A stretch of 25,278 bases of DNA from the IMG/VR virus record IMGVR_UViG_3300047562_003279, positions 1 to 25,278 of that record; one strand, given 5' to 3'. The translations under genes and the position numbers were made by a program. Shown in pieces: positions 11,452 to 25,278 of this stretch (position 1 is its first letter; each line of letters opens with the position of its first letter). The notes under the pieces were generated by a model that ran no database searches, had not been told where the DNA came from, and saw only the letters and a program-made list of their open reading frames with translations. Source of the stretch: a virus.

Positions 11452-11901
11452 TTACTGAATATTGACTGATACTTTGGCGTAACCGTCGGAATCAACTGAA
11501 CTTAGGAAAGAACCTATCTTTACGGCGTCTGTTGAATCTGTGCTAATAAGACCATTAGCACCAACATAAGCACCACTACCTGCTGATGGGGTTCCAGTAA
11601 CACGGTCGGTTGTAACTTGACCTACTCTTAGTAGAGTTACTTTTCCGCCTACTTGTACTTCATCTTTGTGCCAATTAATGTGTTGTCTAGTTAAATCTAG
11701 ATTAACAACATCATTTAATAGAACGCCGACAGGAAGAGCACCGCTTGGATTTGTAGCATAAGCTACTACACCATTAGCATCATCCATTGATACTCCAGAA
11801 CCACTGGTTACTGCGGAAACAACTCCGCCTCTAACAGCAGTTGTGTTCATGAAGAAAGAAACGTCTGTTAATGTTTCGATACGATCAGGTTTAAGAGCCA
11901 T
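11452..11901 (-). CDS. Head decoration/stabilisation protein
   Basis: This 149-residue protein is rich in Val, Gly, Ser, Thr and Asp, with a beta-barrel-like pattern (RGGVVSAVTSGSGVS, GALPVGVLLNDVV, QVGGKVTLLRVGQV). Small beta-rich proteins between scaffold and capsid genes are commonly head decoration or capsid-stabilising proteins in phages. The gene has a good ribosome site (AAGGGAGA) and sits 21 bases before the capsid gene. It probably binds the outside of the mature shell. The family cannot be named from the sequence alone. Confidence 0.7.
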   Translation of the reverse strand: MALKPDRIETLTDVSFFMNTTAVRGGVVSAVTSGSGVSMDDANGVVAYATNPSGALPVGVLLNDVVNLDLTRQHINWHKDEVQVGGKVTLLRVGQVTTDRVTGTPSAGSGAYVGANGLISTDSTDAVKIGSFLSSVDSDGYAKVSVNIQ

Positions 11902-11903
11902 TT

Positions 11904-12659: not shown

Positions 12660-13442
12660 AGATACACCTGTTTTAATTAAATCGTCATTTTTTTTCTCGA
12701 CAATATTGTTTTTAGAAAAAATTATACTTTCGGGATTGGCTGGCTTATTAACAAAACCCTTGCCTGAAAAAGTTATATTTCTCAAAACTCTTCCAATTTG
12801 ATAATCTTCATGTTCACCCATGCCACCATATGCTCTCAAGTATTTAGTCAAATGAGCAGTGTCGTCGTTTCTGCTTAATACCTGATAAGCTCCAGTATTT
12901 TTGTTTCTTAAACCATAATCAAAACCTTTGAAAAAACATTCCATACTAACATATTTAGTTCCGTTTTCTATTTCTGATATAAGTTGTTCAGCTCTTTCTT
13001 TTAGTTCTGGCTGACTAAAACCTCTATATATTACAGAACCGGTTAAGATATGATATTTGTCCGGAATTTCAGCAACGTCTAAATCATCAGGAATAATATT
13101 TCCTTCTTGATCTATAGGCCAATTGGAAGTAATGTGACCTATAATTAAAGACTCATCATGTTCTAAATTTGTTGGTTTATCTTCCGGTGTTTTCTTTGCT
13201 GCCCAAACCTCAGACTTATCGAATATATCGTCATTTTTATTCCAGCTTGAAGTAACTAAAATAGATTGGACATAATAAAGATCATCATCGCTATAAGAAG
13301 CCAAAGTTTTTAGATCTTGATCAATATGGATTTTTTCTGATTTATAAGGAACAGGTTCTGCTAAAGCAGCATACACAATTGAAGAGGACGTTGCGATCTT
13401 ATGATCAATACCGTCGTCAATTTCTGCTTGAAAAATTTTCAT
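11904..13442 (-). CDS. Prohead protease fused to a coiled-coil scaffold
   Basis: Residues 1 to about 245 look like a phage prohead protease: a His in NLEHDESLIIGHI (residues 95 and 103 are candidates) and a Ser in KYVSMECFF (Ser166) match the His/Ser arrangement of phage maturation proteases. From about 295 to 405 there is a long, very charged coiled coil with Met/Lys/Glu heptads (MKKKDEEMKKK). The C-terminus is acidic with a final FVCARLGKKLNKGE segment that could bind capsid subunits. Such protease-scaffold fusions are known in several phages. The protein would shape the prohead, then digest scaffold and capsid N-termini. An internal start may also yield the scaffold alone. Confidence 0.82.
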   Translation of the reverse strand: MKIFQAEIDDGIDHKIATSSSIVYAALAEPVPYKSEKIHIDQDLKTLASYSDDDLYYVQSILVTSSWNKNDDIFDKSEVWAAKKTPEDKPTNLEHDESLIIGHITSNWPIDQEGNIIPDDLDVAEIPDKYHILTGSVIYRGFSQPELKERAEQLISEIENGTKYVSMECFFKGFDYGLRNKNTGAYQVLSRNDDTAHLTKYLRAYGGMGEHEDYQIGRVLRNITFSGKGFVNKPANPESIIFSKNNIVEKKNDDLIKTGVSMNKSTSNMEIYEMSANKETVETTENEELVSATTVVEESVSEIEQIKQELEAAVKQMSMKDMEMKKKDEEMKKKEEMATKMKAEFDEQISVHVQESEAAMKNKNEEMKKKDEQLEKMKAEVESLNEVLAGYKKQEEEMAKKAKMMKRMAALTEAGVSEEVAASAVETFENIDDTAFEAIANMLVSQKKTDVELTEETVPEPTVDASVLENVEVEQDINLGVGSEDSSDVNSTRAELLEFVCARLGKKLNKGE

Positions 13443-13456
13443 TATAAAAACCTATC

Positions 13457-15667: not shown

Positions 15668-15720
15668 TTTTCTCAATTCTATTGTAATAGTAATGCAATA
15701 ATATTAAGATAATACACTTA

Positions 15721-17760
15721 TTATTTGTAAATCCCCATATATACCGAATCGTCATTAGCTCCATTAGTAAACCATTCTGGTCCTTTATACATATCTCCTT
15801 CGTGTTTACCAAAATCTCTTGCGTTTGCGCCTATAATATCGTATTCTGGAGTTTGTAATATTCTGCTAGTCTGTCTAGCTAGCATATTAGCTATTACTAA
15901 AGCGCTATATCTATCTTTTCTTAATCTTCCTTTCTTGCCATTAGGCATTTTAATTTCAGGAGTATCCCATCTATCTCTTGCGTTCGGACCAGTACTAGTC
16001 TGTGTCATAACTATAGTAGTAAGCTCATTCTTTAAGTCTTCAATTTCTAAAATACATTCTCCTAAACTATCATATAAATTCTCTAAGCTAGATTCCATAA
16101 CATCCTGTCCTTCTTTAGCTAATGTTAAACCTAAAGTAAGATTATCAAATCTAGGAAATAGCAAAACTTTATCTTCCATATCTTTTCTTAAACCATGATT
16201 CGCTTGAGCTGTCCAATCTGCTCTAGCAAATTGAACAAGTTCTAATATGTGCAATCCTTGTTGATTATCTGTGTCTTTGGATTTATTATAGTCAATAACA
16301 GGCCATATTAACAGCTCTCCTTCTTCTAATTTGTCTGGGTCGTGTAAAGCCTCCTCGATTGCAACACCTCCTCCTTGAGCATCCATACCTATCCTAGCAC
16401 AAGGAAATACCTTCATTAAGTTTCTAATTTTCCTGGCACAAAAACTATAGAAATCATGCTCGTTTACCAATCCTGTTTTTTGTCGTTCTTTAAAATTACT
16501 TCTATTAGTAGTCCAACAGTAAACAACTCTATTATGGTCAGAATTTAACTCTATAACCACAATACTAAAATTGTCATTTTCTGATGCAGGATCAATTCCA
16601 TAGATATAATGTTTATGGGAAGAACCTTTAACTGTTGCGTCAAAAACAATTTTACCGCTTGTGGGACCAATGATATCTTTCTTGTCTGAAACAACACAAC
16701 TTTCTATCAAGCTTCTCTTAAAAAATCCTTCACTATCTTCTGTAAAACATGCTGCGTATTCCATATTATATATACCAGTATGAATAGTTGCTTTGGCTCG
16801 TGCTACCTGTTTATCATCCATGAAACCTTTTGGTATTAATTCATATGGGATTCTGATAATGCTATAGTCTTTCCAATTGAAATTTTCTGGTACCTCTCCA
16901 TTAAACATGTCTTTGAGCTTATTGATATCTCCTTTGGTGTTTATAATAGTTTTGTACCTATTCCAGTACTGAGAGAAATGCTTAAAAGAATAATCCGCAG
17001 TTCCTGCAATAATTGCTTGATTGCTAATCTTATGAGAAATACTTTCTAGCTCTTCACTCCATATTCCAGCTTTTTTCATAGCTTGTTTTTTAGCTTCTTC
17101 CTTGACATTTTGTATGGGGCTTGCGCTAACTGCGGCAAAGCCAGCAACTACGGTCTCATAAATATCTGGACTAATGGAAGCAAATTCGTCAGCAATGATT
17201 ATGTGTGCCCTTAAACCTCTAATCTTACTACCGTCTCCCATAGGGACTGCAATAGCCCAGCTGTCGCCATATCGGATTGTACATCGGTCTACATCTCTTC
17301 GGGGGCCATCATCATTTCCGTTAAAAATGCTTCTTAGAATTGGGCTATTTCTCCATATGTTTTCCATGTACTCGAAAATAAGCTTACTTTGTCTAAACGC
17401 AGCACCAACAATAACTATTTTGGTTCCAGGCACGAAAATCGATTTTAGTGTTGCGTAGAGAGCTAGCGAAAAACTCTTACCAAAACCTCGGCTTGCAATA
17501 AACATAGGAAATGGTCGATTCCAGAATTCTTGTAGCACAGCTATCTGAATCGGATGAAGCTCTATACCCAATAATAATTTACAGGTCATTCCAAAATATT
17601 TAGGCTGTCTCATTATTTTGACAAGATGAGCATCAGGATTTTCTATATCCTCTTTGCTTCTGTTGATCATTAAATTTTGAGCTATTTTGATTTGAGACGT
17701 ATCGCCAATATTTAACCATGCGTCTTCAAAAATCTTTTTATTTTGATTCATATTTTGCAT
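15721..17760 (-). CDS. terL: Terminase large subunit
   Basis: The 679-residue protein is a complete packaging motor. Walker A is ASRGFGKS at residues 89-96, Walker B is HIIIADE with the acidic pair at 191-192, and a coupling region follows (IIAGTADYS near 250-258). The C-terminal RNase H-like nuclease has Asp390 (YGIDPASE), Asp460 (IGMDAQGGG) and Asp616 (RKDRYSA) as likely metal ligands. Ribosome site AAAGGA lies five bases before the ATG, which overlaps the upstream nuclease gene by 23 bases. It cuts concatemeric DNA and drives it into the prohead with the portal encoded next. Nothing is missing or broken. Confidence 0.97.
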   Translation of the reverse strand: MQNMNQNKKIFEDAWLNIGDTSQIKIAQNLMINRSKEDIENPDAHLVKIMRQPKYFGMTCKLLLGIELHPIQIAVLQEFWNRPFPMFIASRGFGKSFSLALYATLKSIFVPGTKIVIVGAAFRQSKLIFEYMENIWRNSPILRSIFNGNDDGPRRDVDRCTIRYGDSWAIAVPMGDGSKIRGLRAHIIIADEFASISPDIYETVVAGFAAVSASPIQNVKEEAKKQAMKKAGIWSEELESISHKISNQAIIAGTADYSFKHFSQYWNRYKTIINTKGDINKLKDMFNGEVPENFNWKDYSIIRIPYELIPKGFMDDKQVARAKATIHTGIYNMEYAACFTEDSEGFFKRSLIESCVVSDKKDIIGPTSGKIVFDATVKGSSHKHYIYGIDPASENDNFSIVVIELNSDHNRVVYCWTTNRSNFKERQKTGLVNEHDFYSFCARKIRNLMKVFPCARIGMDAQGGGVAIEEALHDPDKLEEGELLIWPVIDYNKSKDTDNQQGLHILELVQFARADWTAQANHGLRKDMEDKVLLFPRFDNLTLGLTLAKEGQDVMESSLENLYDSLGECILEIEDLKNELTTIVMTQTSTGPNARDRWDTPEIKMPNGKKGRLRKDRYSALVIANMLARQTSRILQTPEYDIIGANARDFGKHEGDMYKGPEWFTNGANDDSVYMGIYK

Positions 17761-18235
17761 AAATCCTTTTCATAATAGATAAAGCTGTTTTTTGAGCCCA
17801 ATCATGATTACCGCAAAACATAACATGTATACCATGATTCATTTGTAGTTCTATAATAAATTTCAGTATAAACTTAGGAGTAATTTTAATCTTGCTCCAC
17901 TTGTTTTTGGGTACGTCGGAACCATTTGGATAATTCATTAATTGGTCGTAGTCACACTCGATTAGAATATAAGAATGTTTATAATTCTTCATCCTGTCGA
18001 TAACATCCTTAAATCTTCGTTCAACTACATTTCTCGCTAATTCTGCCATCCCACTTTTTCTTTCTATGCATAATACATTTTCATAGCCTTCGATACTATA
18101 GTCTCCTGTGTCTAATTTTTTATTAGCTACAGCATGATACTGAAATTCCCACGGGTTTTGTTCCCTAGTATCGATTATAACGGTAAAATCTTCATTGTTT
18201 TTTGGAGGCAACGATTCTGAGGAATGATGCTGCAT
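17738..18235 (-). CDS. ERCC4-type nuclease
   Basis: The 165-residue protein shows the core of the XPF/Mus81-like ERCC4 nuclease: IIDTREQNPW (residues 20-29), GDYS (44-47) and CIERKSGMAELA around residues 56-67. The last motif is normally ERKxxxD; here the acidic position after ERK is Ala or, with a one-residue shift, Glu65, so activity is likely but the motif is slightly off. Such stand-alone domains in phages cut branched or flap DNA. Overlapping both HNH and TerL genes, it may trim replication or packaging intermediates before cutting by terminase. It acts in the host cytoplasm. Confidence 0.85.
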   Translation of the reverse strand: MQHHSSESLPPKNNEDFTVIIDTREQNPWEFQYHAVANKKLDTGDYSIEGYENVLCIERKSGMAELARNVVERRFKDVIDRMKNYKHSYILIECDYDQLMNYPNGSDVPKNKWSKIKITPKFILKFIIELQMNHGIHVMFCGNHDWAQKTALSIMKRIYAKYESK

Positions 18236-18491
18236 AAATTTCCTCCATACCTTTTATAGAATCATGATGATGTTTACATAAAGTAATACCATTATCAACT
18301 TCAAATCTTAAGCCAGGAAATTCTGCCCAATTTTTTATGTGATGAGCATTAAGTTTATTTTTCATGGTGCAATTTGGCCATTGACAAGTAAACTTATCTC
18401 TTTTATACACTGCTACTCTCCAGGCTTTATATTCTGGCGAATGAAAGTTTCTCATTACAATTTTTTCTACATTGCTTTTTATTGGTATCAT
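18192..18491 (-). CDS. HNH endonuclease
   Basis: The HNH core is clear: CQWPNC, LNAHHIKNW, FEVDNGITLCKHHH. The first His pair, the Asn of DNG and the final His form the catalytic beta-beta-alpha metal site, and four Cys/His-type ligands surround it. Three starts are possible: TTG 18497, ATG 18491 (used here, 99 aa) and ATG 18455 (87 aa); none has a strong ribosome site, so translation probably relies on coupling to the overlapping dehydratase gene. HNH proteins beside terminase genes stimulate or take part in packaging cleavage in several phages; a homing-type role is the alternative. Confidence 0.88.
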   Translation of the reverse strand: MIPIKSNVEKIVMRNFHSPEYKAWRVAVYKRDKFTCQWPNCTMKNKLNAHHIKNWAEFPGLRFEVDNGITLCKHHHDSIKGMEEIYAASFLRIVASKKQ

Positions 18492-19476
18492 ACTCAACCA
18501 TATTTGCTACTAATGCTTCAAAACTCAATTCTGGTTTCCATCCTAGCTTTTCAAAAGCTTTTGAACTCCTGCCTTTTAGGTAATCAACTTCTGCTGGTCT
18601 ATAAAATTCCGGGTCTTGAACAACATAATCATCCCAGTCATTAATGTCTATTAAATTAAAAGATGCATTCAAAAAATCAGAAATCGAATGAGTCCTTTCT
18701 GTACATATTACAAAATCATCAGGAGTATCTTGTTGTAGCATCATCCACATAGCACGAACATAATCTTTTGCATGCCCCCAGTCTCTTCTTGCCTCTAGAT
18801 TACCTAGTCTTAGTTTAGGAAAGTTTTCTGATCTTCCGCTATTAACAAACTCTCCAATCCATTTTGTGATTTTTCTTGTTACAAAATTCTCTCCGCGTCT
18901 TGGGCTTTCATGATTAAATAAAATACCACAACAACCAAAAATATCATATCCTTCCCTATAAATTCTTACTAGATTATGAGCAGCTAGTTTTGCAACGCCA
19001 TAAGGACTTTGAGGTTTAAAGCTAGTATTTTCATCCTGATATTTTTCTCCTGTATTAACATCAACAGAAAAATTTGCGCCAAACATTTCACTGGTACTTG
19101 CTTGATATAGTTTAGTACCTGGGCTATGTTTAACTATACTATCAAGAATATTTACAACCCCATTTGTATTGATGTTAAAAGTAGTCGTTGGCTGTTTGAA
19201 ACTTGTTCCTACATGACTCTGTGCTGCTAGGTTATAAAATTCATTTGGATTGTATTTTTCTATAATAGCGGCAACAGAAATAGGGTCTGTTAAATCAAAT
19301 TCTTCTAGAATAAATTTGGGGTGATGCAGAATGTGGTGGACTCTTGATGTGTTAACAGTTGATGATCTACGATGTAATCCAACAATTAAATCATATTCGG
19401 ATTTTTCTAGTAATAAATCTGCTAGATAGCTACCATCTTGTCCTGTGATGCCAGTAATTAAAGCTATTTTACTCAT
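18427..19476 (-). CDS. gmd: GDP-mannose 4,6-dehydratase
   Basis: The 349-residue protein is a full-length short-chain dehydrogenase of the GMD group. It has the NAD(P) motif GITGQDG at residues 9-15, HRRSS just after, catalytic Ser/Thr-Ser-Glu at 127-130 (STSE), and YGVAK with Tyr159 and Lys163. NHESPRRGENFVTRKI is the diagnostic substrate-binding block of GMD. It converts GDP-D-mannose to GDP-4-keto-6-deoxymannose, the first step to GDP-fucose, GDP-rhamnose or GDP-perosamine. No follow-up enzyme is in the window. It overlaps the putative TerS stop by eight bases, thus it is expressed with packaging genes, which is an unusual site for a sugar gene. Confidence 0.95.
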   Translation of the reverse strand: MSKIALITGITGQDGSYLADLLLEKSEYDLIVGLHRRSSTVNTSRVHHILHHPKFILEEFDLTDPISVAAIIEKYNPNEFYNLAAQSHVGTSFKQPTTTFNINTNGVVNILDSIVKHSPGTKLYQASTSEMFGANFSVDVNTGEKYQDENTSFKPQSPYGVAKLAAHNLVRIYREGYDIFGCCGILFNHESPRRGENFVTRKITKWIGEFVNSGRSENFPKLRLGNLEARRDWGHAKDYVRAMWMMLQQDTPDDFVICTERTHSISDFLNASFNLIDINDWDDYVVQDPEFYRPAEVDYLKGRSSKAFEKLGWKPELSFEALVANMVEYDTNKKQCRKNCNEKLSFARI

Positions 19477-20311
19477 CGTCCTCTTTCTCTATTATTTCAG
19501 GTATTAAAAATGGTCGATCTACACCTTTGTTTTCGTAAGTATGAAACTCTTGTAGTTTTTTTCTTGCTTTCTCTGTAGCTAAATTAATAAGCTCCATCTC
19601 ACGACCTTCTCTTTCTCTAATTTCTTCGTCTTCTAACATTCGTATAAGTCCAACCCATGAGCTTTTGCCATCTTCGATTCTTTTGATTCTTTGTTCTCTT
19701 GTGGCCTTAAGATCCTTACTAATTTTTTGTTGTTCATTTAAAAGTTTTGTATATTCGTTTGTATAATTAGCAATACTATTCCTGGCAAAATTAAGCTGGG
19801 TTTCCATATTAGCAAGCTTTGGAACATCTCGCTGATCTTCGGGCTTTTTGTATTCATCATCAACTAATTTTTGAAGTTTTTCAGTATCTGTAATATGTCT
19901 TTTTCGCTCTTTCATTGAGCGATTGATAAGAATTTCGATTGTAATAAATTGCTTTATCTGTAGTTCTTCGGCCGGTAAAACATCTTCACGAAACTGTTTG
20001 ATCAAACTTACCCATGTCTGTTCAAATAATTCTAATTCGCCGCTAGTCTCATCAAATTGTTTTTTAATCTCTGGCCAAAAAGGTTTACTGTGTAGTTTTT
20101 GTTTTAAATATTCAATGTTCTCTAGATTCTCTTGTCCCAACAGTAAATGGTTTTCTGATATGTATCTTTCTATTGGTGCAGAAGATCGATTAAGTTGTTC
20201 TGCTATGTCCTCTATAGAAATAGAGTTTATATTTTTTCTTATGAACTCTTCTTCTTGTAAAGAGAGCTGCCCTCTTTTTTTGGGTGTTTTATTTTTTTTC
20301 TGCGTAGCCAT
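19469..20311 (-). CDS. Putative terminase small subunit
   Basis: The 280-residue protein has a basic N-terminus, then a helix-turn-helix-like segment (LSLQEEEFIRKNINSISIED then IAEQLNRSSAPIERYISEN, about residues 16-55) and a long helical, charged body with a coiled-coil central part. The HTH plus coiled-coil organisation is that of phage small terminases, which recognise phage DNA and load TerL. It is encoded in the packaging module upstream of TerL, though separated by three genes. It overlaps the sigma-like gene by 23 bases. The identification is inference from architecture and position, and another DNA-binding head or regulatory protein is possible. Confidence 0.62.
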   Translation of the reverse strand: MATQKKNKTPKKRGQLSLQEEEFIRKNINSISIEDIAEQLNRSSAPIERYISENHLLLGQENLENIEYLKQKLHSKPFWPEIKKQFDETSGELELFEQTWVSLIKQFREDVLPAEELQIKQFITIEILINRSMKERKRHITDTEKLQKLVDDEYKKPEDQRDVPKLANMETQLNFARNSIANYTNEYTKLLNEQQKISKDLKATREQRIKRIEDGKSSWVGLIRMLEDEEIREREGREMELINLATEKARKKLQEFHTYENKGVDRPFLIPEIIEKEDDE

Positions 20312-20945
20312 TTTTTTTTATGATTATCATGATTTCTTGTTGGAGTTTAACGAGCTCATTGCGCGGAATTCTTTCTCCATGTTTAATTTTTAGATAATTT
20401 TCTCTTTCGCTCGGTGGTAAGTTATTATCTATAATATCTAGGATTTCTTTATTGGCAATTTTTGATATAAAAGAATTTTCTTCGCTATTAGCTATTTTTT
20501 GTTCCTCTATATATTGTGGCGACATTAGGTTCTTTTTGTTATTGTTTCTTTTTTGCCACAAGCTATATAGTTGACATTCTTCTGGTTTACAAAATTTTTT
20601 ACAAAAGTTATCGGGACCATTTTTAGGATTATGGAATTCACATTTTATGCAGGGTTTATCGGGCCTTTGATAATTGTCTCGCTTATAGTTAAAAAGTCTA
20701 TTTCTCACGTGGGTCCAAAGAAAATTTTCCAGTGGACGAGATTTATCATACTTATCTAGACACTCTAGGGCAAAGATAGTAGCTTGAGATTTCATATCCT
20801 CAAAATTATGATAGCCAAATTTAAACTTGTGTGCCAATTTTTTTGTGACATTATTTATAGCGGAAATGAATTCCTCTTCTGATATGCCTTTTGGTAGTCC
20901 TTTTTTCTTATTATTTTTCTTTGGTGTCTTCTTCTTTTTCTTCAT
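20289..20945 (-). CDS. Phage sigma-70-family factor with a cysteine-rich insertion
   Basis: After a very Lys-rich N-terminus, residues 22-92 look like sigma region 2: FKFGYHNFEDMKSQATIFAL, then LDKYDKSRPLENFLWTHVRN and RLFNYKRD, including the core-binding and -10 recognition helices. Next comes a cluster of cysteines at about 99, 102, 115, 119 and 124, likely a zinc site not usual in sigma factors. A short C-terminal helical part (PSERENYLKIKHG) could be region 4. It would redirect host RNA polymerase to late phage genes, like gp55 of T4-type phages. As one of the first genes of the late-type operon, it fits a regulator of structural genes. Confidence 0.75.
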   Translation of the reverse strand: MKKKKKTPKKNNKKKGLPKGISEEEFISAINNVTKKLAHKFKFGYHNFEDMKSQATIFALECLDKYDKSRPLENFLWTHVRNRLFNYKRDNYQRPDKPCIKCEFHNPKNGPDNFCKKFCKPEECQLYSLWQKRNNNKKNLMSPQYIEEQKIANSEENSFISKIANKEILDIIDNNLPPSERENYLKIKHGERIPRNELVKLQQEIMIIIKKNGYAEKK

Positions 20946-21060
20946 CTAGTAACTGAGCAATGCTTTTGGTTGATGTTGATTCTAGGTCTTTTGAAACATC
21001 CAAATGTTCTGAGGCGGTAATTTTTAAGGTAGAAGATACAAAATTATATTCTGGGGGCAT
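20911..21060 (-). CDS. Small acidic protein at the head of the late operon (49 aa)
   Basis: A 49-residue frame starts at ATG 21060 with a well-placed ribosome site (AAGGTG, six bases upstream) and overlaps the sigma-like gene by 35 bases. It begins MPPEYNFVSSTLKITASE and ends in an acidic, Lys-rich tail. I do not recognise it. The good ribosome site, the position as first gene of the operon and the overlap make it a likely real gene, possibly a partner of the sigma-like protein or simply a translational leader. Confidence 0.6.
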   Translation of the reverse strand: MPPEYNFVSSTLKITASEHLDVSKDLESTSTKSIAQLLDEEKEEDTKEK

Positions 21061-21140
21061 GTGTTTCACCTTGATCTCTAGAGTAAAGTTACTATTATAA
21101 TAACGTATTACACAATATTGTCTAATTTAAGGGGCATAAA
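21061..21140. promoter_or_regulatory. Divergent promoter region between the two operons
   Basis: The 80 bases between the divergent starts hold a near-palindromic TATTATAATA. It gives a TATAAT -10 box on the plus strand at 21096-21101 (TTGATC 19 bases upstream) and one on the minus strand at 21094-21099 (TAGACA 19 bases upstream). Spacing is longer than ideal for both. The arrangement suggests mutually exclusive leftward and rightward transcription, but the boxes are moderate matches only. Confidence 0.4.
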
Positions 21141-21383
21141 ATGACAACAAAATATCACAGATGGCAGGAAACTGAGCTAGAGTACATTAAAAACAACCAT
21201 AATATACTCAGCGATGAAGAGATTGCAGCAAATTTAAGTAAGATTACAAATAAGAATATTACGGTAGCTATGATAAGACGTCAAAGAAGAAAATTAGTTA
21301 TTAAAAAACCTAGAGGCAGAAGATCCAAGGATTCTGATGTTGTTATGCAGGAAGAAAAGGTGGGGGCTGTCGATGAAACATGA
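21141..21383 (+). CDS. Small helix-turn-helix DNA-binding protein (80 aa)
   Basis: The protein reads HRWQETELEYIKNNHNILSD then EEIAANLSK and TVAMIRRQRRKLVIKKPRGR. This is a short three-helix, Myb/HTH-like pattern (W...E..YI...SDEEIA..L....T..MIRRQR..L) followed by a basic tail, which suggests DNA binding. Ribosome site AAGGGG precedes the ATG by seven bases. Its stop overlaps the next gene. Codon use is AT-rich like the left arm, unlike the genes further right. A regulator of the divergent late operon, or a terminase- or homing-type accessory DNA-binding protein, are both reasonable. Confidence 0.7.
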   Translation: MTTKYHRWQETELEYIKNNHNILSDEEIAANLSKITNKNITVAMIRRQRRKLVIKKPRGRRSKDSDVVMQEEKVGAVDET

Positions 21384-21684
21384 TATTGGAAAAGATAGCA
21401 ACATTGATTTTTTGAGATGGTTAAGGGGCAGATTAGTAAATAGATATAAAGAAGATCCTTTAGTTGTAAATAATTTGGATAATATCATTAATAACAAGAA
21501 AATAGTCAGTAAAACAATCGATGTTAATTTAGTCGAAAAAATATGTGAAAAATTCTGGCCGGGGTTTACTCCAGAAACTTCAGAATTCTTTGGTTCTGTT
21601 GATAGGTATGGAGAACAGGAAAAGAACGAAATAAGGCATCTGGTCACAAAGATTCTTGGAGAAGCTAGAAGGGATTGTTCTTAG
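21373..21684 (+). CDS. Hypothetical protein coupled to the HTH gene (103 aa)
   Basis: I chose ATG 21373, which overlaps the HTH gene's stop by 11 bases and has AGGTGGGGG just upstream; a longer in-frame start at 21337 would lie deep in the HTH gene. The 103 residues are mixed charge and helical (DFLRWLRGRLVNRYKEDPLV, NEIRHLVTKILGEARRDC) with a WPGFTPETSEFFG turn-rich centre. I do not recognise a family. Coupled translation with the HTH protein suggests a joint role. Confidence 0.65.
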   Translation: MKHDIGKDSNIDFLRWLRGRLVNRYKEDPLVVNNLDNIINNKKIVSKTIDVNLVEKICEKFWPGFTPETSEFFGSVDRYGEQEKNEIRHLVTKILGEARRDCS

Positions 21685-21869
21685 GGCTAATCTGAAGGTT
21701 TAGGTAATACTATTTAATTTGGTTGGGCTTATTGTTTTTGTACCACCGCGCCTTTATAGTCAGGAGGCGTTAATAACACTATAAAATATAAAAACCCCCC
21801 TTAATATAGTCGAAATAGTATAACAACTTTTTAATGTTAATAACATATAGTAAAAATAACATCATAAAT
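21685..21869. other. Non-coding AT-rich junction before the cassette array
   Basis: No coding frame with a ribosome site is visible on either strand. It contains a weak hairpin CGCCT...AGGCG around 21750-21769, which may end transcription of the two genes to the left, a stretch of C after TATAAAAAC, and two copies of GTTAATAACA (about 21768 and 21835). Composition changes from AT-rich to GC-balanced immediately after this stretch. Confidence 0.5.
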
Positions 21870-22006
21870 CCCCCAAATGAGGGGTCTTGAGCGGGGGCGA
21901 CCCCTCGCTAGGGGGGTGCTAGCAAATCCTGTACCAAAGTTTTGGCATGAAACTTGCACGAGCAAACCCTGTGCCAAAAAAATCGCAAAAAAAACTTTTT
22001 TTCTAG
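21870..22006. repeat. Cassette repeat copy 1 (long form)
   Basis: The first copy of the separator repeat. It has a divergent first hairpin (CCCC, AAATGA, GGGG near 21871-21884), the conserved second hairpin core ACCCCTCGCTAGGGGGGT (21900-21917), three 17-bp sigma-54-like elements, and an A-tract/T-tract (AAAAAAAACTTTTTTT, about 21987-22002) directly before the TTGACA box of the next promoter. Copies 1 and 4 are the long form with three elements. Confidence 0.85.
21921..21977. promoter_or_regulatory. Three sigma-54-like elements in alternating orientation
   Basis: The minus strand reads TTGGTACAGGATTTGCT (21937-21921), the plus strand TTGGCATGAAACTTGCA (21942-21958), and the minus strand TTGGCACAGGGTTTGCT (21977-21961). 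Each has GG and GC exactly ten bases apart, as in the -24/-12 sigma-54 consensus TGGCAC-N5-TTGC. The last two face each other and also form an inverted repeat (TTTGGCA and TGCCAAA ends). They may be promoters, operator sites or RNA structure. Confidence 0.55.
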
Positions 22007-22035
22007 TTGACAGGCTCAAGTCTACTCTGTAAAAT
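22007..22035 (+). promoter_or_regulatory. Sigma-70 promoter of the 41-aa gene
   Basis: TTGACA (22007-22012), a 17-base spacer and TAAAAT (22030-22035) form a near-perfect promoter. An A-tract/T-tract sits four bases upstream of the -35 box and could act as an UP element. A purine-only leader follows to the ATG at 22078. Confidence 0.88.
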
Positions 22036-22077
22036 GTAGATATAAGAAGTAAGGAAAGAAAGAAAAGGAAAAAGAAA

Positions 22078-22203
22078 ATGAAGTTCACCGAAACGGTTAG
22101 CGAATGCTGCAACTCGATCCTCTCGCCTGAGCAAGAGCAGATCGGTATCTGCCCTCACTGTGGCGAACACTGCTCGATCATCGTGGAAGAGTGGGAAGAA
22201 TAA
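22078..22203 (+). CDS. 41-aa zinc-ribbon microprotein
   Basis: The 41-residue protein begins MKFTETVSECCNSILSPEQ and carries CPHCGEHC, giving cysteines at 10, 11, 25, 28 and 32 plus His31: a likely small zinc finger. It aligns without gaps to residues 15-55 of the 57-aa protein encoded at 23479, sharing CC-N, CP-x-C-x-x-HC and the hydrophobic residues after. The gene has its own strong promoter and a purine-rich leader (AAGGAAAGAAAG) as ribosome site. Small zinc-binding early proteins often bind host RNA polymerase or nucleic acid; that is only an analogy here. Confidence 0.75.
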   Translation: MKFTETVSECCNSILSPEQEQIGICPHCGEHCSIIVEEWEE

Positions 22204-22229
22204 AAATCCAAAAAAATCTTCTCAAGCAC

Positions 22230-22258
22230 TTGACAAGAAAAAGCCGATACTGTAGAAT
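22230..22258 (+). promoter_or_regulatory. Sigma-70 promoter of the 59-aa gene
   Basis: TTGACA (22230-22235), 17-base spacer, TAGAAT (22253-22258). It lies only 26 bases after the stop of the 41-aa gene with no hairpin repeat between them, so the 59-aa gene can be read both from this promoter and by read-through. Confidence 0.88.
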
Positions 22259-22285
22259 AGAGAAAACGAAGCAAAGGAAAAAACA

Positions 22286-22465
22286 ATGACCAACTTCATC
22301 ACATTTTTTGACGCTCAGGGAAACGAACTCGACGTGGTTCCATTCAACGGCACCAACAACCCTGCTGAACAGATTACCAGTATCGTCGATGACGCTCATG
22401 GGATGGCCGTTCGTTTTGAGATTGAAGACGAGGAAGGATTCGTCTACCATCGTGGCGTCTGTTAA
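22286..22465 (+). CDS. 59-aa acidic early-type protein
   Basis: The protein MTNFITFFDAQGNELDVVPF... is 59 residues, acidic and beta/alpha-mixed, ending YHRGVC. It is not recognised. Ribosome site AAAGGAAA lies upstream of the ATG. The stop region TCTGTTAACA is followed by the hairpin repeat, and the same ten bases mark the end of the 30-aa membrane peptide at 23299, showing that both sit at the same cassette boundary. GC-balanced codon use (GAC, ACC, ATC, TTC) differs from the structural genes. Confidence 0.72.
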   Translation: MTNFITFFDAQGNELDVVPFNGTNNPAEQITSIVDDAHGMAVRFEIEDEEGFVYHRGVC

Positions 22466-22473
22466 CATACCCT

Positions 22474-22570
22474 ACCCCTCGCAAGGGGGGTCCGGGCCGG
22501 TCGCGACCCCTCGCTAGGGGGGTCTAGCAAAAGCTGTGCCAAAAAATCGCAAAAAAAACTTTTTTTCTAG
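22474..22570. repeat. Cassette repeat copy 2 (short form)
   Basis: Hairpin one is ACCCCTCGCAAGGGGGGT (22474-22491), then CCGGGCCGG, then hairpin two GACCCCTCGCTAGGGGGGTC (22505-22524). One sigma-54-like element and an A-tract/T-tract follow, right up to the TTGACA box. Neither hairpin is followed by a T-run directly, so factor-independent termination would have to be of the hairpin-only kind; the T-tract lies some thirty bases later. Confidence 0.9.
22526..22542 (-). promoter_or_regulatory. Sigma-54-like element, repeat copy 2
   Basis: On the minus strand the sequence is TTGGCACAGCTTTTGCT, with TGGCAC and TTGCT in exact -24/-12 register. A transcript from it would start within hairpin two and run leftward, antisense to the end of the 59-aa gene. 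Promoter activity is not shown. Confidence 0.5.
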
Positions 22571-22599
22571 TTGACAGACTCAAGTTCAGTCCGTAAAAT
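22571..22599 (+). promoter_or_regulatory. Sigma-70 promoter of the first 65-aa gene
   Basis: TTGACA (22571-22576), 17-base spacer, TAAAAT (22594-22599), preceded by an A-tract/T-tract. Its sequence up to about base 22610 closely matches the promoter at 22007, showing both came from one ancestral cassette. Confidence 0.88.
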
Positions 22600-22643
22600 G
22601 TCGATATAAGAAGTAAGGGACAAGAAAGAAAGGGAAAAAGAAA

Positions 22644-22841
22644 ATGGCTAATGCTACTAAAAACCTGTTCACTGCTACCGTCTATGATGTCTTTGGTGAA
22701 GAGATTGACACGCTCACCGGAACGGATATCCTCGACCTTGAGAAGAGAGTATGGTCGCTCTGGAGTGGCAGCGATTGGGCTGTCACCTATACCATTAGTG
22801 ACGACCTCGGCGCAGAACTCATCTGCGAATCACTGGACTAG
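22644..22841 (+). CDS. 65-aa cassette protein, first paralogue
   Basis: The protein starts MANATKNLFTATVYDVFGEE and contains LEKRVWSLWSGSDWAVTYTI. It is about 60 percent identical over its full length, without gaps, to the 65-aa protein at 24605; conserved parts are LTG, the VWSLWSGS centre, TYT-x-SD and ESL at the end. The alternating pattern suggests two strands, a helix and two strands. The function is unknown. It has its own promoter, a purine-rich leader (GGGAAAAAGAAA) and the downstream TGTTCAGTATTGACA promoter junction, which is duplicated along with it. Confidence 0.75.
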   Translation: MANATKNLFTATVYDVFGEEIDTLTGTDILDLEKRVWSLWSGSDWAVTYTISDDLGAELICESLD

Positions 22842-22850
22842 TGTTCAGTA

Positions 22851-22878
22851 TTGACAAGCCAAAAAAATCTGCTAGACT
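22851..22878 (+). promoter_or_regulatory. Sigma-70 promoter of the 75-aa gene
   Basis: TTGACA (22851-22856), 16-base spacer, TAGACT (22873-22878). It begins nine bases after the stop of the 65-aa gene. The join TAGTGTTCAGTATTGACA is the same after the second 65-aa paralogue at 24802. Confidence 0.85.
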
Positions 22879-22907
22879 TAGGAAAACGAAAGAAAAGGAA
22901 AGAAAGA

Positions 22908-23135
22908 ATGAGATTCAACACCTACAATACCTACAGTTCTCCCGACTACGGTCGCTATCGTCGTCATGCCCATATCTTCCTTGGATGGGATGCCAGTTTC
23001 AAGGCTGATGGACAGCGTTGGACCTGGAAACTTCGCCCTCACCTTGAAACAAAGATGGACGCCGAAGACGCAATCTTTGAGCGATTCCCAAACGCTACTG
23101 AAATCAAACTTCGCAAGATCATTTGTGAGGAATAA
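22908..23135 (+). CDS. 75-aa basic, aromatic-rich protein
   Basis: I chose ATG 22908: the promoter -10 box at 22873 means an upstream start at 22851 would lie before the transcript begins. A leader with AAAGGAAAG precedes it. The protein (MRFNTYNTYSSPDYGRYRRH...) has an Arg/Tyr-rich start, a WTWKLRPHL centre and an acidic helix end. Not recognised. Two tiny genes follow with short spacing, making a three-gene cassette, the only one of that size in the arm. Confidence 0.7.
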   Translation: MRFNTYNTYSSPDYGRYRRHAHIFLGWDASFKADGQRWTWKLRPHLETKMDAEDAIFERFPNATEIKLRKIICEE

Positions 23136-23138
23136 AAC

Positions 23139-23210
23139 GTGACAACAACCATTGTTGCAGTGGTGTGGGTTGTATTCTGTTGGGCTATACTATTGAGGAC
23201 AAACCTATGA
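23139..23210 (+). CDS. 23-aa hydrophobic peptide (putative single membrane segment)
   Basis: A GTG at 23139, with GAGGA eight bases before it, opens a 23-residue frame: TTTIVAVVWVVFCWAILLRT in its core, nearly all hydrophobic, enough for one membrane helix. Its stop overlaps the ATG of the next tiny gene (ATGA). The ribosome site, the coupling and the hydrophobic run support a real gene, but its shortness keeps confidence low. Confidence 0.45.
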   Translation: MTTTIVAVVWVVFCWAILLRTNL

Positions 23211-23299
23211 ACGATGGCGATATGGATGTTGTTTGTGTTATGTTGTTTCTTTCTTGCGTTATTGTTTCTATTTTTTATTGTTATACTCCTATCTGTTAA
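23207..23299 (+). CDS. 30-aa hydrophobic peptide (putative single membrane segment)
   Basis: ATG 23207 follows AGGAC and overlaps the preceding stop. The 30 residues begin MNDGDMD and continue as a hydrophobic run (VVCVMLFLSCVIVSIFYCY) fit for one membrane helix. The frame ends in TCTGTTAACA just before the hairpin repeat, the same ending as the 59-aa gene, which favours this frame over an overlapping one that would run through the repeat. A small holin-like, antiholin-like or host-membrane-targeting peptide is conceivable; nothing distinguishes these. Confidence 0.5.
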   Translation: MNDGDMDVVCVMLFLSCVIVSIFYCYTPIC

Positions 23300-23308
23300 C
23301 ACACCCCC

Positions 23309-23411
23309 ACCCCTCGCAAGGGGGGTCCGGGCCGGGCGCGACCCCTCGCTAGGGGGGTCTACTAGCAAACCCTGTGCCAGAAAAAAAACAAAAAAAACTT
23401 GACCGAGGGAC
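23309..23411. repeat. Cassette repeat copy 3 (short form)
   Basis: Hairpin one ACCCCTCGCAAGGGGGGT (23309-23326) and hairpin two GACCCCTCGCTAGGGGGGTC (23340-23359), with CCGGGCCGGGCGC between, then one sigma-54-like element. The A-tract here has almost lost its T-tract (AAAAAAAACAAAAAAACTT) and the following ACTTGACCGAG is present twice, thirteen bases apart, so the -35 box may be duplicated. Confidence 0.88.
23364..23380 (-). promoter_or_regulatory. Sigma-54-like element, repeat copy 3
   Basis: Minus-strand sequence CTGGCACAGGGTTTGCT, in -24/-12 register. The five bases between the two conserved halves differ from copy 2 (AGGGT against AGCTT), while the halves are unchanged, which suggests constraint on the halves. 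Confidence 0.5.
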
Positions 23412-23439
23412 TTGACCGAGCCGATACAGAGAGTATACT
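23412..23439 (+). promoter_or_regulatory. Sigma-70 promoter of the 57-aa gene
   Basis: TTGACC (23412-23417), 16-base spacer, TATACT (23434-23439). An extra TTGACC lies 13 bases further upstream. The expected start of the transcript, about 23446, coincides with an in-frame ATG, which would be leaderless. Confidence 0.82.
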
Positions 23440-23478
23440 TGAGACATGGTAACCAACCCCACTAACGGAGACTCACTC

Positions 23479-23652
23479 ATGAGCATCGCCTTCGAAACCC
23501 GTCAGATCGAGGAAACCTATGTCGAAGTTCAGGTCGCAACTAGCGGCTGCTGCAACGTGTTCCTGAACGACACCGAGGTAGAATATGAAGTCTGCCCGTG
23601 CTGCAAGGATCACTGTGAGGTGGTTCTCGATTACATGCCCGTTCAACTGTGA
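23479..23652 (+). CDS. 57-aa zinc-ribbon microprotein, paralogue of the 41-aa protein
   Basis: I chose ATG 23479, preceded by GGAG; an ATG at 23446 would be leaderless with respect to the promoter. The protein has CC at residues 24-25 and CPCCKDHC at 39-46. It aligns without gaps to the 41-aa protein at 22078: the CC to CP distance is 14 residues in both, and His and the last Cys match. The N-terminal extension (MSIAFETRQIEETYVEVQVA) is unique. A small zinc-binding protein; target unknown. It is followed after 11 bases by the 66-aa gene. Confidence 0.75.
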   Translation: MSIAFETRQIEETYVEVQVATSGCCNVFLNDTEVEYEVCPCCKDHCEVVLDYMPVQL

Positions 23653-23663
23653 GGAGTAAACCT

Positions 23664-23864
23664 ATGTTCAACATTGAAAACAATGGCCCATACTTTCAGG
23701 CTGCGATGGAAGCTATGACTGATCAAGAGATCACCACCTCGATGAGGGGGGCTCAAGATGCGTTGCCTAATCCAACGATCAGTACTGCATACCGTACACT
23801 ACTGCGGTGCATTATCATCGAAGGTGCAACCGAGTTACGAAAGCGTTGGTTTCCGGCCCACTAG
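23664..23864 (+). CDS. 66-aa helical protein
   Basis: ATG 23664 has a strong ribosome site (GAGGAG) overlapping the end of the 57-aa gene, so both are on one transcript. An upstream in-frame GTG is less likely. The protein (MFNIENNGPYFQAAMEAMTD...) is mostly helical with QEITTSMRGAQDALPNP, then a helix rich in Arg and Leu (YRTLLRCIIIEGATELRKRW). Not recognised. Confidence 0.7.
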   Translation: MFNIENNGPYFQAAMEAMTDQEITTSMRGAQDALPNPTISTAYRTLLRCIIIEGATELRKRWFPAH

Positions 23865-23881
23865 TGTAAACCTGTATACCC

Positions 23882-24045
23882 GCCCGATTGAGGGACTACC
23901 CCTCTTTCGGGGGGTCCGGGCCGGTCACGACCCCTCGCTGGGGGGGTGCTAACAAATGTCGTACCAAAACCAAAAAGCTAGGTTTGGCATGGTATTTGCA
24001 CGAGCAAACGGTGTGTCAGAAAAAACTTTTTGTGGATTTTGGCTG
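23882..24045. repeat. Cassette repeat copy 4 (long form)
   Basis: Begins with GCCCGATTGAGGGACTACC, shared only with copy 5, then hairpin one ACCCCTCTTTCGGGGGGT (23898-23915), CCGGGCCGG, and hairpin two with CCCCTCGCTGGGGGGG (23931-23946). Three sigma-54-like elements follow as in copy 1. The A-tract is short. The rest of this 278-base gap between genes is the promoter and leader of the 85-aa gene. Confidence 0.87.
23951..24019. promoter_or_regulatory. Three sigma-54-like elements in alternating orientation, copy 4
   Basis: Minus TTGGTACGACATTTGTT (23967-23951, one half degenerate), plus TTGGCATGGTATTTGCA (23984-24000, good match) and minus CTGACACACCGTTTGCT (24019-24003, first half degenerate). 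Order and orientation equal copy 1, though the distance between the first two is longer here. The central plus-strand element is the best conserved. Confidence 0.5.
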
Positions 24046-24073
24046 TTGACCTGGACGATAAAGAGTGTAGAAT
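24046..24073 (+). promoter_or_regulatory. Sigma-70 promoter of the 85-aa gene
   Basis: TTGACC (24046-24051), 16-base spacer, TAGAAT (24068-24073). The leader to the ATG at 24143 is about 58 bases, longer than in other cassettes, and contains CCGCCAACACTGAGAGGCGG, able to fold into a small hairpin (CCGCC/GGCGG). Confidence 0.82.
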
Positions 24074-24142
24074 AACGAAGATCCCGCCAACACTGAGAGG
24101 CGGATACTAGGTCTAATCAGAGCATCACAAGGAGAACCAACC

Positions 24143-24400
24143 ATGTACAAATGCGTTATCACCACATTCTTTGGTCCATGTGGCGGCGAAGGTGGATATG
24201 GTTCTATCACCCAAATCGGTATGGACCGCTGCTCCCCAAAGCGGGCCGTATGGAAAGCCTCTCACTGGAGCGTCTCTGATGGCAAGGCCACCAGAAACTA
24301 TATCAACCAACAGCCTTGGGGGGCTGGTGGTGGCGTACCAATTCTTGGGCACTTCCAACTCATAAAGGATAACAAAGTCATAAAGGAGGTTTGGGATTAG
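24143..24400 (+). CDS. 85-aa glycine- and aromatic-rich protein
   Basis: ATG 24143 has a strong ribosome site AAGGAG. The protein (MYKCVITTFFGPCGGEGGYG...) is rich in Gly, Trp and Lys, with two Cys early and a C-terminal strand-helix (HFQLIKDNKVIKEVWD). The N-terminal half looks like a small beta structure. No family is recognised. It is the single gene of its cassette, bounded by repeat copies 4 and 5. Confidence 0.7.
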   Translation: MYKCVITTFFGPCGGEGGYGSITQIGMDRCSPKRAVWKASHWSVSDGKATRNYINQQPWGAGGGVPILGHFQLIKDNKVIKEVWD

Positions 24401-24419
24401 GTCTTTAATCACTTTTATG

Positions 24420-24533
24420 GCCCGATTGAGGGACTACCCCCTCTTTCGGGGGGTCCGGGCCGGGCGCGACCCCTCGCTAGGGGGGTCTAGCAAAAGCTGT
24501 GCCAAAAAAATCGCAAAAAAAACTTTTTTCTAG
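24420..24533. repeat. Cassette repeat copy 5 (short form)
   Basis: GCCCGATTGAGGGACTACC as in copy 4, hairpin one ACCCCCTCTTTCGGGGGGT (24436-24454), CCGGGCCGGG, hairpin two GACCCCTCGCTAGGGGGGTC (24468-24487), one sigma-54-like element and an A-tract/T-tract. Its left part is copy-4-like and its right part nearly identical to copy 2, consistent with recombination between copies. Confidence 0.9.
24489..24505 (-). promoter_or_regulatory. Sigma-54-like element, repeat copy 5
   Basis: Minus strand TTGGCACAGCTTTTGCT, identical to copy 2, in -24/-12 register and pointing leftward towards the 85-aa gene. Confidence 0.5.
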
Positions 24534-24562
24534 TTGACACGCTCAAGAAAATCTGCTCTATT
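24534..24562 (+). promoter_or_regulatory. Promoter of the second 65-aa gene, weak -10 box
   Basis: TTGACA (24534-24539) with a 17-base spacer, but the -10 position reads TCTATT (24557-24562) where the first copy has TAAAAT. The boundary and downstream GTCGATAT are retained. This promoter is probably weaker than that at 22571. Confidence 0.65.
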
Positions 24563-24604
24563 GTCGATATGACAAGTAGGAAACAGTTCTCGAAAGGAAA
24601 TGAA

Positions 24605-24802
24605 ATGAGCAACGCAACTGAAACCCTGTACACCGCACATGTTCATGACTGCTATGGTGAAACCATCGACGTTCTAACTGGAAGCAATATCATCGAACTA
24701 GAGCGACAAGTGTGGTCCCTCTGGAGTGGTAGTGAACAGGCTACCACCTACACTCTCAGTGATTCTTGTGGCGTAGAACTAGCCTATGAATCACTGGAAT
24801 AG
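24605..24802 (+). CDS. 65-aa cassette protein, second paralogue
   Basis: I chose ATG 24605 (MSNATETLYTAHVHDCYGET), preceded by AAAGGAAA, and not an upstream in-frame start at 24569, which would add 12 residues without counterpart in the paralogue. It is the same length as the 22644 protein and aligns gap-free with about 39 of 65 identical residues, including VWSLWSGS. Most changes lie outside that block. The copy has diverged enough to suggest selection or age, yet remains open. The function is unknown. Confidence 0.75.
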   Translation: MSNATETLYTAHVHDCYGETIDVLTGSNIIELERQVWSLWSGSEQATTYTLSDSCGVELAYESLE

Positions 24803-24811
24803 TGTTCAGTA

Positions 24812-24840
24812 TTGACAGCCACAAAAAAGTTTTGTAGACT
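24812..24840 (+). promoter_or_regulatory. Sigma-70 promoter of the 103-aa gene
   Basis: TTGACA (24812-24817), 17-base spacer, TAGACT (24835-24840). It follows the stop of the 65-aa gene by nine bases, as in the first copy, but the gene after it is unrelated. Confidence 0.86.
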
Positions 24841-24877
24841 CAGCGTATCAATGAAACCAACCCCAAGGAAAACGAAG

Positions 24878-25189
24878 ATGACCTTCAACGAAGAACTCGC
24901 AACGCAACTCCTCGCCCAAGCAACTGAGGTTCGCAAGGCTCACCCCCTAGTGGAAGGGGATGACTTTTTCGATGTGATGGAAGAATGGGACGCATTCGAA
25001 GATGATGGTGGGGAATGCGAATATGATCCTATCATGAGTGAGGATTACTATCGCAACTGGCTTGCAAAACGAGAAACCAAACGAGCAGAGAAGACTGCCG
25101 CTGACCATGAGGCTGAAACGCGAGCGAAGACGCTGGCGTTCTATATGAACGAAGACAACATACTGAACGAACGTTCACTGTGGGACTGA
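24878..25189 (+). CDS. 103-aa acidic helical protein
   Basis: I chose ATG 24878, with AAGGA eight bases upstream; an ATG at 24851 in frame lies close to the transcript start. The protein (MTFNEELATQLLAQATEVRK...) is strongly acidic with a DFFDVMEEWDAFEDDGGE stretch, then a charged helix (KRETKRAEKTAADHEAETRA). It could mimic nucleic acid or bind a basic partner, as many acidic early phage proteins do, but that is inference. It ends the last cassette before the truncated repeat copy 6. Confidence 0.7.
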   Translation: MTFNEELATQLLAQATEVRKAHPLVEGDDFFDVMEEWDAFEDDGGECEYDPIMSEDYYRNWLAKRETKRAEKTAADHEAETRAKTLAFYMNEDNILNERSLWD

Positions 25190-25234
25190 ACACCTGATCA
25201 CTGTACGCATGTACACCCCACCACCTAGGGAGGA

Positions 25235-25278
25235 ACCCCCTCCTTTGGGGGGTTGGGGCCGGGGACGACCCCTCAGGC
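25235..25278. repeat. Cassette repeat copy 6, cut by the window edge
   Basis: Hairpin one ACCCCCTCCTTTGGGGGGT (25235-25253), then TGGGGCCGGGGACGACCCCTC and the window ends in hairpin two. It follows the 103-aa gene and shows that the array continues beyond this window. Confidence 0.8.

Follow-up and report, generated by a model that had tools for sequence, protein, structure and literature searches.

Small-gene cassettes bordered by a repeated double palindrome in the probable early region of a large uncultivated phage

Organization of the Cassette Array

Positions 21,870 to 25,278 of the linear virus record IMGVR_UViG_3300047562_003279 (all 25,278 bases of which are called the window here) hold an array of tiny genes divided by copies of a boundary element consisting of two GC-rich palindromes. 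The array is probably the early region, of the host-takeover type, of a large uncultivated phage, and it is laid out as a row of self-contained cassettes resembling in their working the promoter-early stem-loops (PeSLs) of T4-type phages. The usual cassette begins with the element and runs through an A/T-rich stretch and a sigma70-type promoter, often accompanied by a CGATA box, to one or a few small genes or tRNAs. The element is often followed at 4–8 nucleotides (nt) by a sigma54-type site facing backward. Element and promoter are linked, and the same layout is present in relatives, in which the genes are partly regrouped and the palindromes are replaced throughout the array. As judged from sequence, the array genes may serve in host takeover. 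Early on, the cassettes would be read by the host polymerase carrying its principal sigma factor. The element would separate neighbouring units at the level of DNA or RNA, and it would also be the place where cassettes recombine, duplicate or get lost. The copies in one genome would be kept alike by exchange among them or by adaptation to one phage-specific binding protein.

The first 21 kb of the window are filled with structural-type genes, mainly on the minus strand, including a terminase, a weak portal match and a capsid-like protein. From about 21.9 kb on, the GC content climbs from about 33% to 42–52%, and there begin the tiny plus-strand open reading frames (ORFs) divided by the repeat. 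Each element has the order palindrome 1, GC-rich core, palindrome 2. The initial annotation had counted six copies, and these are borne out as five complete copies and a sixth cut by the window end. On the plus strand, they lie at 21,870–21,917 (the array head), 22,475–22,523, 23,310–23,358, 23,899–23,947, 24,437–24,486 and 25,236–25,278. The repeat 19-mers are found at 21,899, 22,505, 23,340, 23,929 and 24,468, with a count of 0 for the reversed-pattern control.

Scanning IMG/VR for the exact pattern turned up one further contig, IMGVR_UViG_3300043420_001189 (L001), which is identical to the window across 3,032 bases (window 22,247–25,278). The array continues there with 14 copies, for at least 15 copies altogether, and with 2 tRNA genes and more small genes. 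The sixth element is whole in L001, from about 2990, and has TTGACA immediately 3′ of palindrome 2. The annotation's suggestion of searching related contigs for the repeat thus extended the array in L001. Cassette content is partly regrouped in relatives such as L041 and L068. Its figure of one to five genes per cassette does not hold for the window, where cassettes hold one to three; longer ones are found in L001. Shuffles rule out chance as the origin of the array signals. Window 21,000–25,278 had no match at blastn sensitivity among 50,697 INPHARED phage records, IMG/VR gave no match to a second GC-type pattern, and Rfam scans of five and of four sources matched tRNAs alone.

Relatives of the Array

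In IMG/VR, 141 relatives were found with the terminase, and the analysis kept the best 80 loci. Among 81 loci, 10 (including the two of this phage) were positive in a scan for adjacent GC-rich double hairpins, a scan that misses AT-rich palindromes, and many of the loci end before the relevant place. On the same side of the terminase, the equivalent region in relatives carries other palindromes. The palindrome CTGCCAAAATGGCAG is present twice per element in G006, L023 and L067; L041 and L068 have other GC palindrome types; and G002 has a looser TAAGT...ACTTA type. Exact copies of a TGCCA-type element occur in 73 IMG/VR stretches (about 58 contigs by count of names), and 72 newly added loci supplied 82 unique copies with enough flank for analysis. 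This terminase is carried by 13 of the 16 large records with the TGCCA-type element, and the other three, which may be fragments, had no match.

By terminase and capsid, the closest INPHARED relatives are Bacillus and Microcystis phages at 21–25% identity. A host call was tried from terminase matches in GTDB. These fell in three metagenome-assembled genomes of three unrelated groups, probably misbinned phage contigs, and therefore no host was assigned. In three other records, G021, G025 and G031 (the records of L177, L147 and L137), the terminase was matched in two pieces in frames of 1,024–1,031 amino acids (aa), as by an intein-like insertion.

Sigma70-Type Promoters and the CGATA Box

Positions 21,700–25,278 contain 13 promoter-like sites, versus 4.1 in dinucleotide shuffles, and L001 contains 52 versus 19.1. 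There is no such excess in window 2000–21,000 (76 versus 74.7). On the plus strand of 21,700–25,278, eight sites reach scores of 10 or 11 out of 12, and the one at 22,705 is within a gene. Plus-strand promoters were identified at 22,007–22,035 (TTGACA-17-TAAAAT), 22,230–22,258 (TTGACA-17-TAGAAT, with GCCGATA in the spacer), 22,571–22,599 (TTGACA-17-TAAAAT, then GTCGATA), 22,851–22,878 (TTGACA-16-TAGACT), 23,412–23,439 (TTGACC-16-TATACT with GCCGATA), 24,046–24,073 (TTGACC-16-TAGAAT with GACGATA) and 24,812–24,840 (TTGACA-17-TAGACT). The claim of the annotation that a promoter opens nearly every cassette agrees with the excess over shuffles. It fails for the cassette at 24,534, where the plus-strand TTGACA box (24,534–24,539) has no good TAnnnT partner and is not among the sites of the promoter scan.

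Over the joined array of the window and L001, TTGAC/TAnnnT sites number 27 forward, a few of them intragenic, and 1 backward. CGATA is within the spacer or just 3′ of the −10 box in 12 of these 27 promoters, versus 6.4% of random 39-nt windows. The relatives are similar in this regard, with CGATA at 4/9 promoters in L041, 4/7 in L068, 12/28 in G006 and 17/36 in G002, versus 4.5–8.9% at random. The linkage of element to promoter is also seen in the TGCCA-type family. Of 82 copies, 45 are followed on the 3′ side by a promoter no more than 130 nt away and 4 have one on the mirror side, and 84 of 1,440 random windows used as a control contain a promoter.

Another conserved intergenic element, about 55 nt long, was noticed at L001:8189–8244 and in relatives, with 41 unique copies of the form CCTAATCC-TTCG-GATTTGG...TAGTCAGC. 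Its sequence is largely the same across phages of different palindrome types, and the sources searched gave no Rfam match for it. A TTGAC promoter is found within 100 nt downstream in 29 of 41 copies, versus 1 of 41 on the mirror side. Separately, the motif GGTGTATA is 14- to 16-fold enriched ahead of 61 long ORFs in the late regions, yet genome-wide it is not above its reversed control, and therefore we make no claim on it.

Concerted Change of the Palindromes

Genes were grouped by BLAST and then set against the positions of the elements. G006 and G002 have almost the same gene order, and most of their borders correspond as well. Their 11 orthologous cassettes have a mean protein identity of 0.67, but the elements at these borders are no more alike than shuffled sequence. 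The identity of 75-nt element windows, in a comparison that omits two stretches of G002 outside the array and one half element, is 0.57 for orthologous, 0.58 for non-orthologous and 0.57 for shuffled pairs, versus 0.73 among the elements inside G006 and 0.71 inside G002. The best local element scores show the same: 8.6 for orthologous, 9.0 for other and 7.8 for shuffled pairs, versus 35.1 within G006 and 28.5 within G002. This pattern recurs between this phage and G006 (4 cassettes) or G002 (3 cassettes). Between it and L068, where both have GC types, the values over 8 cassettes are 0.67 orthologous and 0.68 other. The copies within a genome are alike either through recombinational homogenization or through one binding specificity, and the data do not separate the two.

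The genes themselves are regrouped at the borders to some extent. Gene family F8 (24,878–25,189) stands behind family F2 in this array and behind F0 in L041 and L068, and F10 and F4 share one cassette here and are in separate cassettes in G006. Within the window, the two 65-aa proteins at 22,644 and 24,605 are duplicates, with a DNA match of 76.5% over about 390 nt running from the element to the next promoter.

A possible, though less likely, explanation of the uniformity is that a single phage-encoded DNA-binding protein uses the palindromes as operators, like stoperators, in which case the copies would match through the shared protein and change together with its specificity. The array-wide switch of palindromes between phages with orthologous cassettes speaks for this, as does the presence of the same half-sites in both palindromes of an element. 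There is also a gene for a possible DNA-binding protein at the array head (21,141–21,383, plus strand). It encodes 80 aa, matches a D5-like regulator in PHROG (2.6e-4) with no Pfam match, and has relatives in G002 and L063. This protein is so far only a candidate for the cognate regulator, and it speaks against the explanation that the stems in this array consist simply of runs of C and runs of G, with loops that vary. In the cluster A mycobacteriophages, according to the description in PMC6550527, stoperators are 13-base-pair sites whose motif distances correlate with repressor distances. Like the elements here, they are described as many genome-specific copies, mostly in one orientation, with sequences that shift together between relatives, and they are the closest conceptual parallel to the concerted palindrome change. 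They differ in being short asymmetric sites (asymmetric according to the title of PMC9283540) rather than palindromic hairpins, in having a known repressor, and in that the description in PMC6550527 mentions no hairpin or promoter unit.

Folding of the Boundary Element

The annotation had described the element as a double hairpin. It is correct that both hairpins can form side by side. However, the arms also pair across, the 3′ arm of palindrome 1 with the 5′ arm of palindrome 2 and the outer arms together, to make one long nested hairpin. Over the 15 copies of this phage, the best fold beats the best side-by-side fold by 3.3 kcal/mol on average; by our reading, 10 copies have a nested best fold, 4 a side-by-side one and 1 neither of these. 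Predicted energies range from −25.7 to −36.2 kcal/mol. Relative to dinucleotide shuffles, the five complete window copies have z values of −2.86, −1.29, −1.25, −1.99 and −2.10. Among the copies in this genome, 91.0% of cells pair in the side-by-side form, with 0 pairs changed on both sides, and 92.0% in the nested form, with 2 such pairs. Neither is above shuffles, and these counts do not discriminate between the forms.

The loops are tetraloop-like, GCAA in this array and TTCG and TCCG in L041, and tetraloops of these types are stable RNA loops. Together with the predicted fold energies, they speak for the alternative that the palindromes act on RNA alone, as 3′-end stabilizers or processing sites, or else are selfish repeats, like the repetitive extragenic palindromic (REP) sequences, with no role in gene exchange. 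We think either rather improbable. The folding is only modestly above shuffles, and coupling to a downstream promoter and a −24/−12 site, together with positions at cassette borders, would be unexpected of selfish repeats.

Comparison to the PeSLs of T4-Type Phages

PeSLs in T4-type phages were reportedly described by Arbiol in 2010 and by Comeau in 2014. Second-hand descriptions in PMC4503421 and PMC3950731 portray repeated units of a stem-loop and an early-type promoter amid small genes that are regrouped among relatives. The array is like this in having many copies of a hairpin followed by a sigma70-type promoter around small genes (15 copies in this phage), and in having gene content that differs at element borders between relatives, as in the F0/F2/F8 combinations of this phage, L041 and L068.

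The array departs from the PeSLs in its hairpins. An intrinsic terminator scan flagged no element on the plus strand, and flagged the first palindrome of copy 1 on the minus strand. Among the promoters of this phage, 16 have a GC hairpin within 110 nt, 13 of these hairpins being element palindromes by our reading, and none of the 16 has a U-tract. By one rule applied to all arrays, U-tracts were found in 1/6 cases in L041, 0/4 in L068, 1/3 in L023 and 1/12 in G006. The control phages gave 3/5 for RB49 and 0/1 for nt-1. RB49 includes two textbook terminator–promoter pairs at 16 nt from the −35 box, whereas the same script places the hairpins of this phage mostly at 27–89 nt. By this test the array is not a PeSL. 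Unlike PeSLs, the element is also a double palindrome with a GC core, is associated with a backward sigma54-type site, and has its palindrome replaced array-wide. A search with Gp23 for T4-like affinity found 0/6, and its controls were likewise without a match. The nearest annotated relatives by terminase and capsid are not T4-like, and membership in the T4 group is disfavoured by this and by the U-tract result. We regard it as very unlikely that the array consists of true PeSLs belonging to a T4-like phage. What survives of the PeSL-like system proposed in the annotation is a virus record with repeats at the cassette borders, sigma70-type promoters following them, and some of the small genes in other combinations in relatives, as a PeSL-like shuffling system would predict; what does not is PeSL membership.

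Several points weigh against the reading as self-contained cassettes. As the palindromes lack the U-tract of a terminator, they would have to separate transcripts in some other way. Predicted folding exceeds shuffles only modestly, and the copies in this genome are almost without compensatory change. Some cassettes have extra internal promoters with no element. Most borders keep their places between G006 and G002, and therefore shuffling is not constant. The comparison to L041 (5 cassettes) gives 0.72 for orthologous and 0.68 for other elements, a slight positional memory. Finally, the element lists were built with a different pattern for each genome, and the G002 palindromes are loose.

Sigma54-Type Sites

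The sigma54 consensus has a longer form, TGGCACG-N4-TTGC with GG-N10-GC, and scans were made with this form, scored out of 11. The sigma54-like elements mentioned in the annotation are confirmed as sequence matches. At 10 or more of 11, the joined array has 10 sites versus 0.08 in shuffles, a 125-fold excess, and window 1–21,000 has none. The best matches reach 11 of 11. At the same threshold there are 7 versus 0.05 in L041, 4 versus 0.04 in L068, 4 versus 0.04 in L023, 4 versus 0.17 in G006 and 3 versus 0.14 in G002. In G006 (122 kb) and G002 (223 kb), every one of these sites is at an array or array head. The conserved block 3′ of the palindromes reads on its minus strand as TGGCA-N7-TGC, which is the sigma54 consensus given in the methods section of PMC4459075.

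In the window, minus-strand sites directly past palindrome 2 are at 21,922–21,936 (9 of 11, 5 nt past), 22,527–22,541 (TGGCACAGCTTTTGC, 10 of 11, 4 nt), 23,365–23,379 (TGGCACAGGGTTTGC, 10 of 11, 7 nt) and 24,490–24,504 (TGGCACAGCTTTTGC again, 10 of 11, 4 nt). Three others, each 10 of 11, are at 21,943–21,957 (TGGCATGAAACTTGC, plus strand), 21,962–21,976 (minus strand) and 23,985–23,999 (TGGCATGGTATTTGC, plus strand). Over the joined array, 10 of 15 elements have a backward site 3′ of palindrome 2, 9 of these at 4–7 nt, and the same is true of 5/6 elements in L041 and 3/5 in L068. In the TGCCA-type family, 55 of 82 copies have the backward site, 52 of these at 4–6 nt; on the 5′ side, sites in any orientation are seen in 6 of 82.

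It is possible that the backward sites are working sigma54 promoters that fire into the palindromes, antisense to the upstream cassette, and shut down the early genes or hold polymerase at the border, although on balance we doubt it. The quality and excess of the matches and their near-fixed distance from the palindrome speak for function. So does a subset of sites in the loci scanned, 18 of 329 unique sites, that have a TATAT-type stretch right 3′ of the −12 box. In 15 of these 18, an ORF of 35 aa or longer lies ahead at no more than 75 nt, versus 51 of 311 of the others, with the limit that some loci are close relatives. Their position mostly just upstream of ORFs suggests that forward −24/−12 promoters probably work in this clade, and if they do, the backward sites deserve serious consideration. 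Sigma54 promoters are spaced such that transcription starts about 12 nt beyond the GC of the −12 box. A backward start would then land within palindrome 2. Stem changes in the TGCCA-type family preserve G-U pairing more often on the antisense than on the sense RNA (29 versus 8, counts of events that are not independent), and the fixed U-G pairs in the family of this phage fit the sense strand instead, such that the two families point to opposite strands. Also on the negative side, the TATAT stretch is missing from most backward sites; sites are present on only 1/10 elements in G006 and 2/5 in L023; and enrichment in G002 is weak, falling to 4 versus 1.13 in shuffles at 9 or more of 11. No sigma54 DNA-binding domain or activator was found in 16 large relatives, many of which may be fragments, while control genomes were positive; the host could provide both.

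A more elaborate version, to which we likewise give little credence, has the border as a two-way switch. The host sigma70 promoter would read forward into the early genes, and a sigma54 promoter would read from within palindrome 2 antisense over the preceding cassette. Some ten sites per array would then reverse or freeze early transcription upon the action of a host activator, and the palindromes at the predicted start would be genome-specific control sites replaced in concert. In the open-licence literature, which leaves most subscription journals outside, we found no report on phage arrays of sigma54-type promoters. A putative sigma54-like protein, as opposed to promoters, is reported for a Pectobacterium phage in PMC7693777.

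Genes of the Cassettes and Their Neighbours

Third codon positions are the most variable in all 12 gene pairs compared, which include 9 genes of this phage, five of them within the window, and therefore at least the compared ORFs are genes. Only 2 of 26 array proteins scanned reach the Pfam cut-off, with matches to DUF7249 and DUF7227/GP88. The cassette genes of the window are all on the plus strand. The first (22,078–22,203) encodes a 41-aa protein with the motif CPHCGEHC and a 95% identical relative in L041, and is followed by a 59-aa ORF with no Pfam match (22,286–22,465). The next cassette encodes one of the two duplicated 65-aa proteins (22,644–22,841), which is 60% identical to its paralogue, a 75-aa protein with a 50% relative in L063 (22,908–23,135), and a 44-aa ORF with a GTG start and relatives in L041 and L048 at 75–78% (23,165–23,299). 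Then come a small CPCCKDHC protein (23,446–23,652; 68 aa, shortened to 57 aa if translation begins at the in-frame ATG of 23,479), with relatives in L041 and L068 at 88–91%, and a 66-aa protein with relatives at 71–74% (23,664–23,864). An 85-aa ORF with no Pfam match occupies 24,143–24,400. The other 65-aa paralogue (24,605–24,802) has an 86% relative in L041. The F8 gene at 24,878–25,189 encodes 103 aa (112 aa from the ATG at 24,851), and its relatives in L068 (59%) and L041 (46%) are the ones behind a different first gene.

The tiny CPxCxxHC proteins at 22,078–22,203 and 23,446–23,652 are of a family duplicated and reused across several cassettes, with F0 in L041, L068, L063, L081 and G002. 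At L001:7805–8111, two ORFs overlap in different frames, one Gln/Tyr/Pro-rich and one basic, and the basic frame is kept in L068, G006 and G002 at 55–59%. tRNA genes between elements inside the arrays number 12 in L094 (G006 43.4–47.8 kb) and 8 in L099 and L100 together (G002 about 19–22.7 kb).

Between the structural genes and the array head, beside the possible DNA-binding protein, is a minus-strand gene at 20,289–20,945 for a candidate phage sigma factor. It matches the PHROG RNA polymerase sigma factor (5.5e-6), and Pfam Sigma70_r2 at 1.6e-4, below the cut-off. A gene for an ERCC4-domain nuclease, possibly acting on branched DNA, adjoins the terminase (17,738–18,235, minus strand; Pfam 6.9e-11). 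A candidate for a large phage RNA is a stretch of 600–700 nt at L094:1100–1860 (G006 about 41.1–41.9 kb) and L100:5489–6167. It is kept in pieces of at least 100 nt at 74–94% in 13 other loci, its longest stop-free run is 58 codons on the plus and 152 on the minus strand, and it had no Rfam match even at E 1.

Place among Known Systems and Significance

The host-takeover module of phage SPO1 groups small genes that have strong promoters of their own, and in that regard it is like the array. We know of no repeated palindrome boundary element in the SPO1 module. The haloarchaeal virus HGTV-1, as described in PMC3950731, has a TATA-box-like region and an inverted repeat before most of its left-hand ORFs. 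The likeness is in an inverted repeat and promoter before the ORFs of one genome arm and in the many tRNAs; HGTV-1 differs in its archaeal-type promoter and in that the description mentions no sigma54-type site.

The array extends a cassette-style organization of small, probably early genes to a phage clade that occurs in many IMG/VR records and has no T4-like phages as its nearest annotated relatives. If the −24/−12 sites work, a phage would here be using sigma54 on an unusually large scale. Finally, borders that stay fixed while all the palindromes change constitute a natural experiment in which recombinational homogenization may be set against the tracking of a binding protein.

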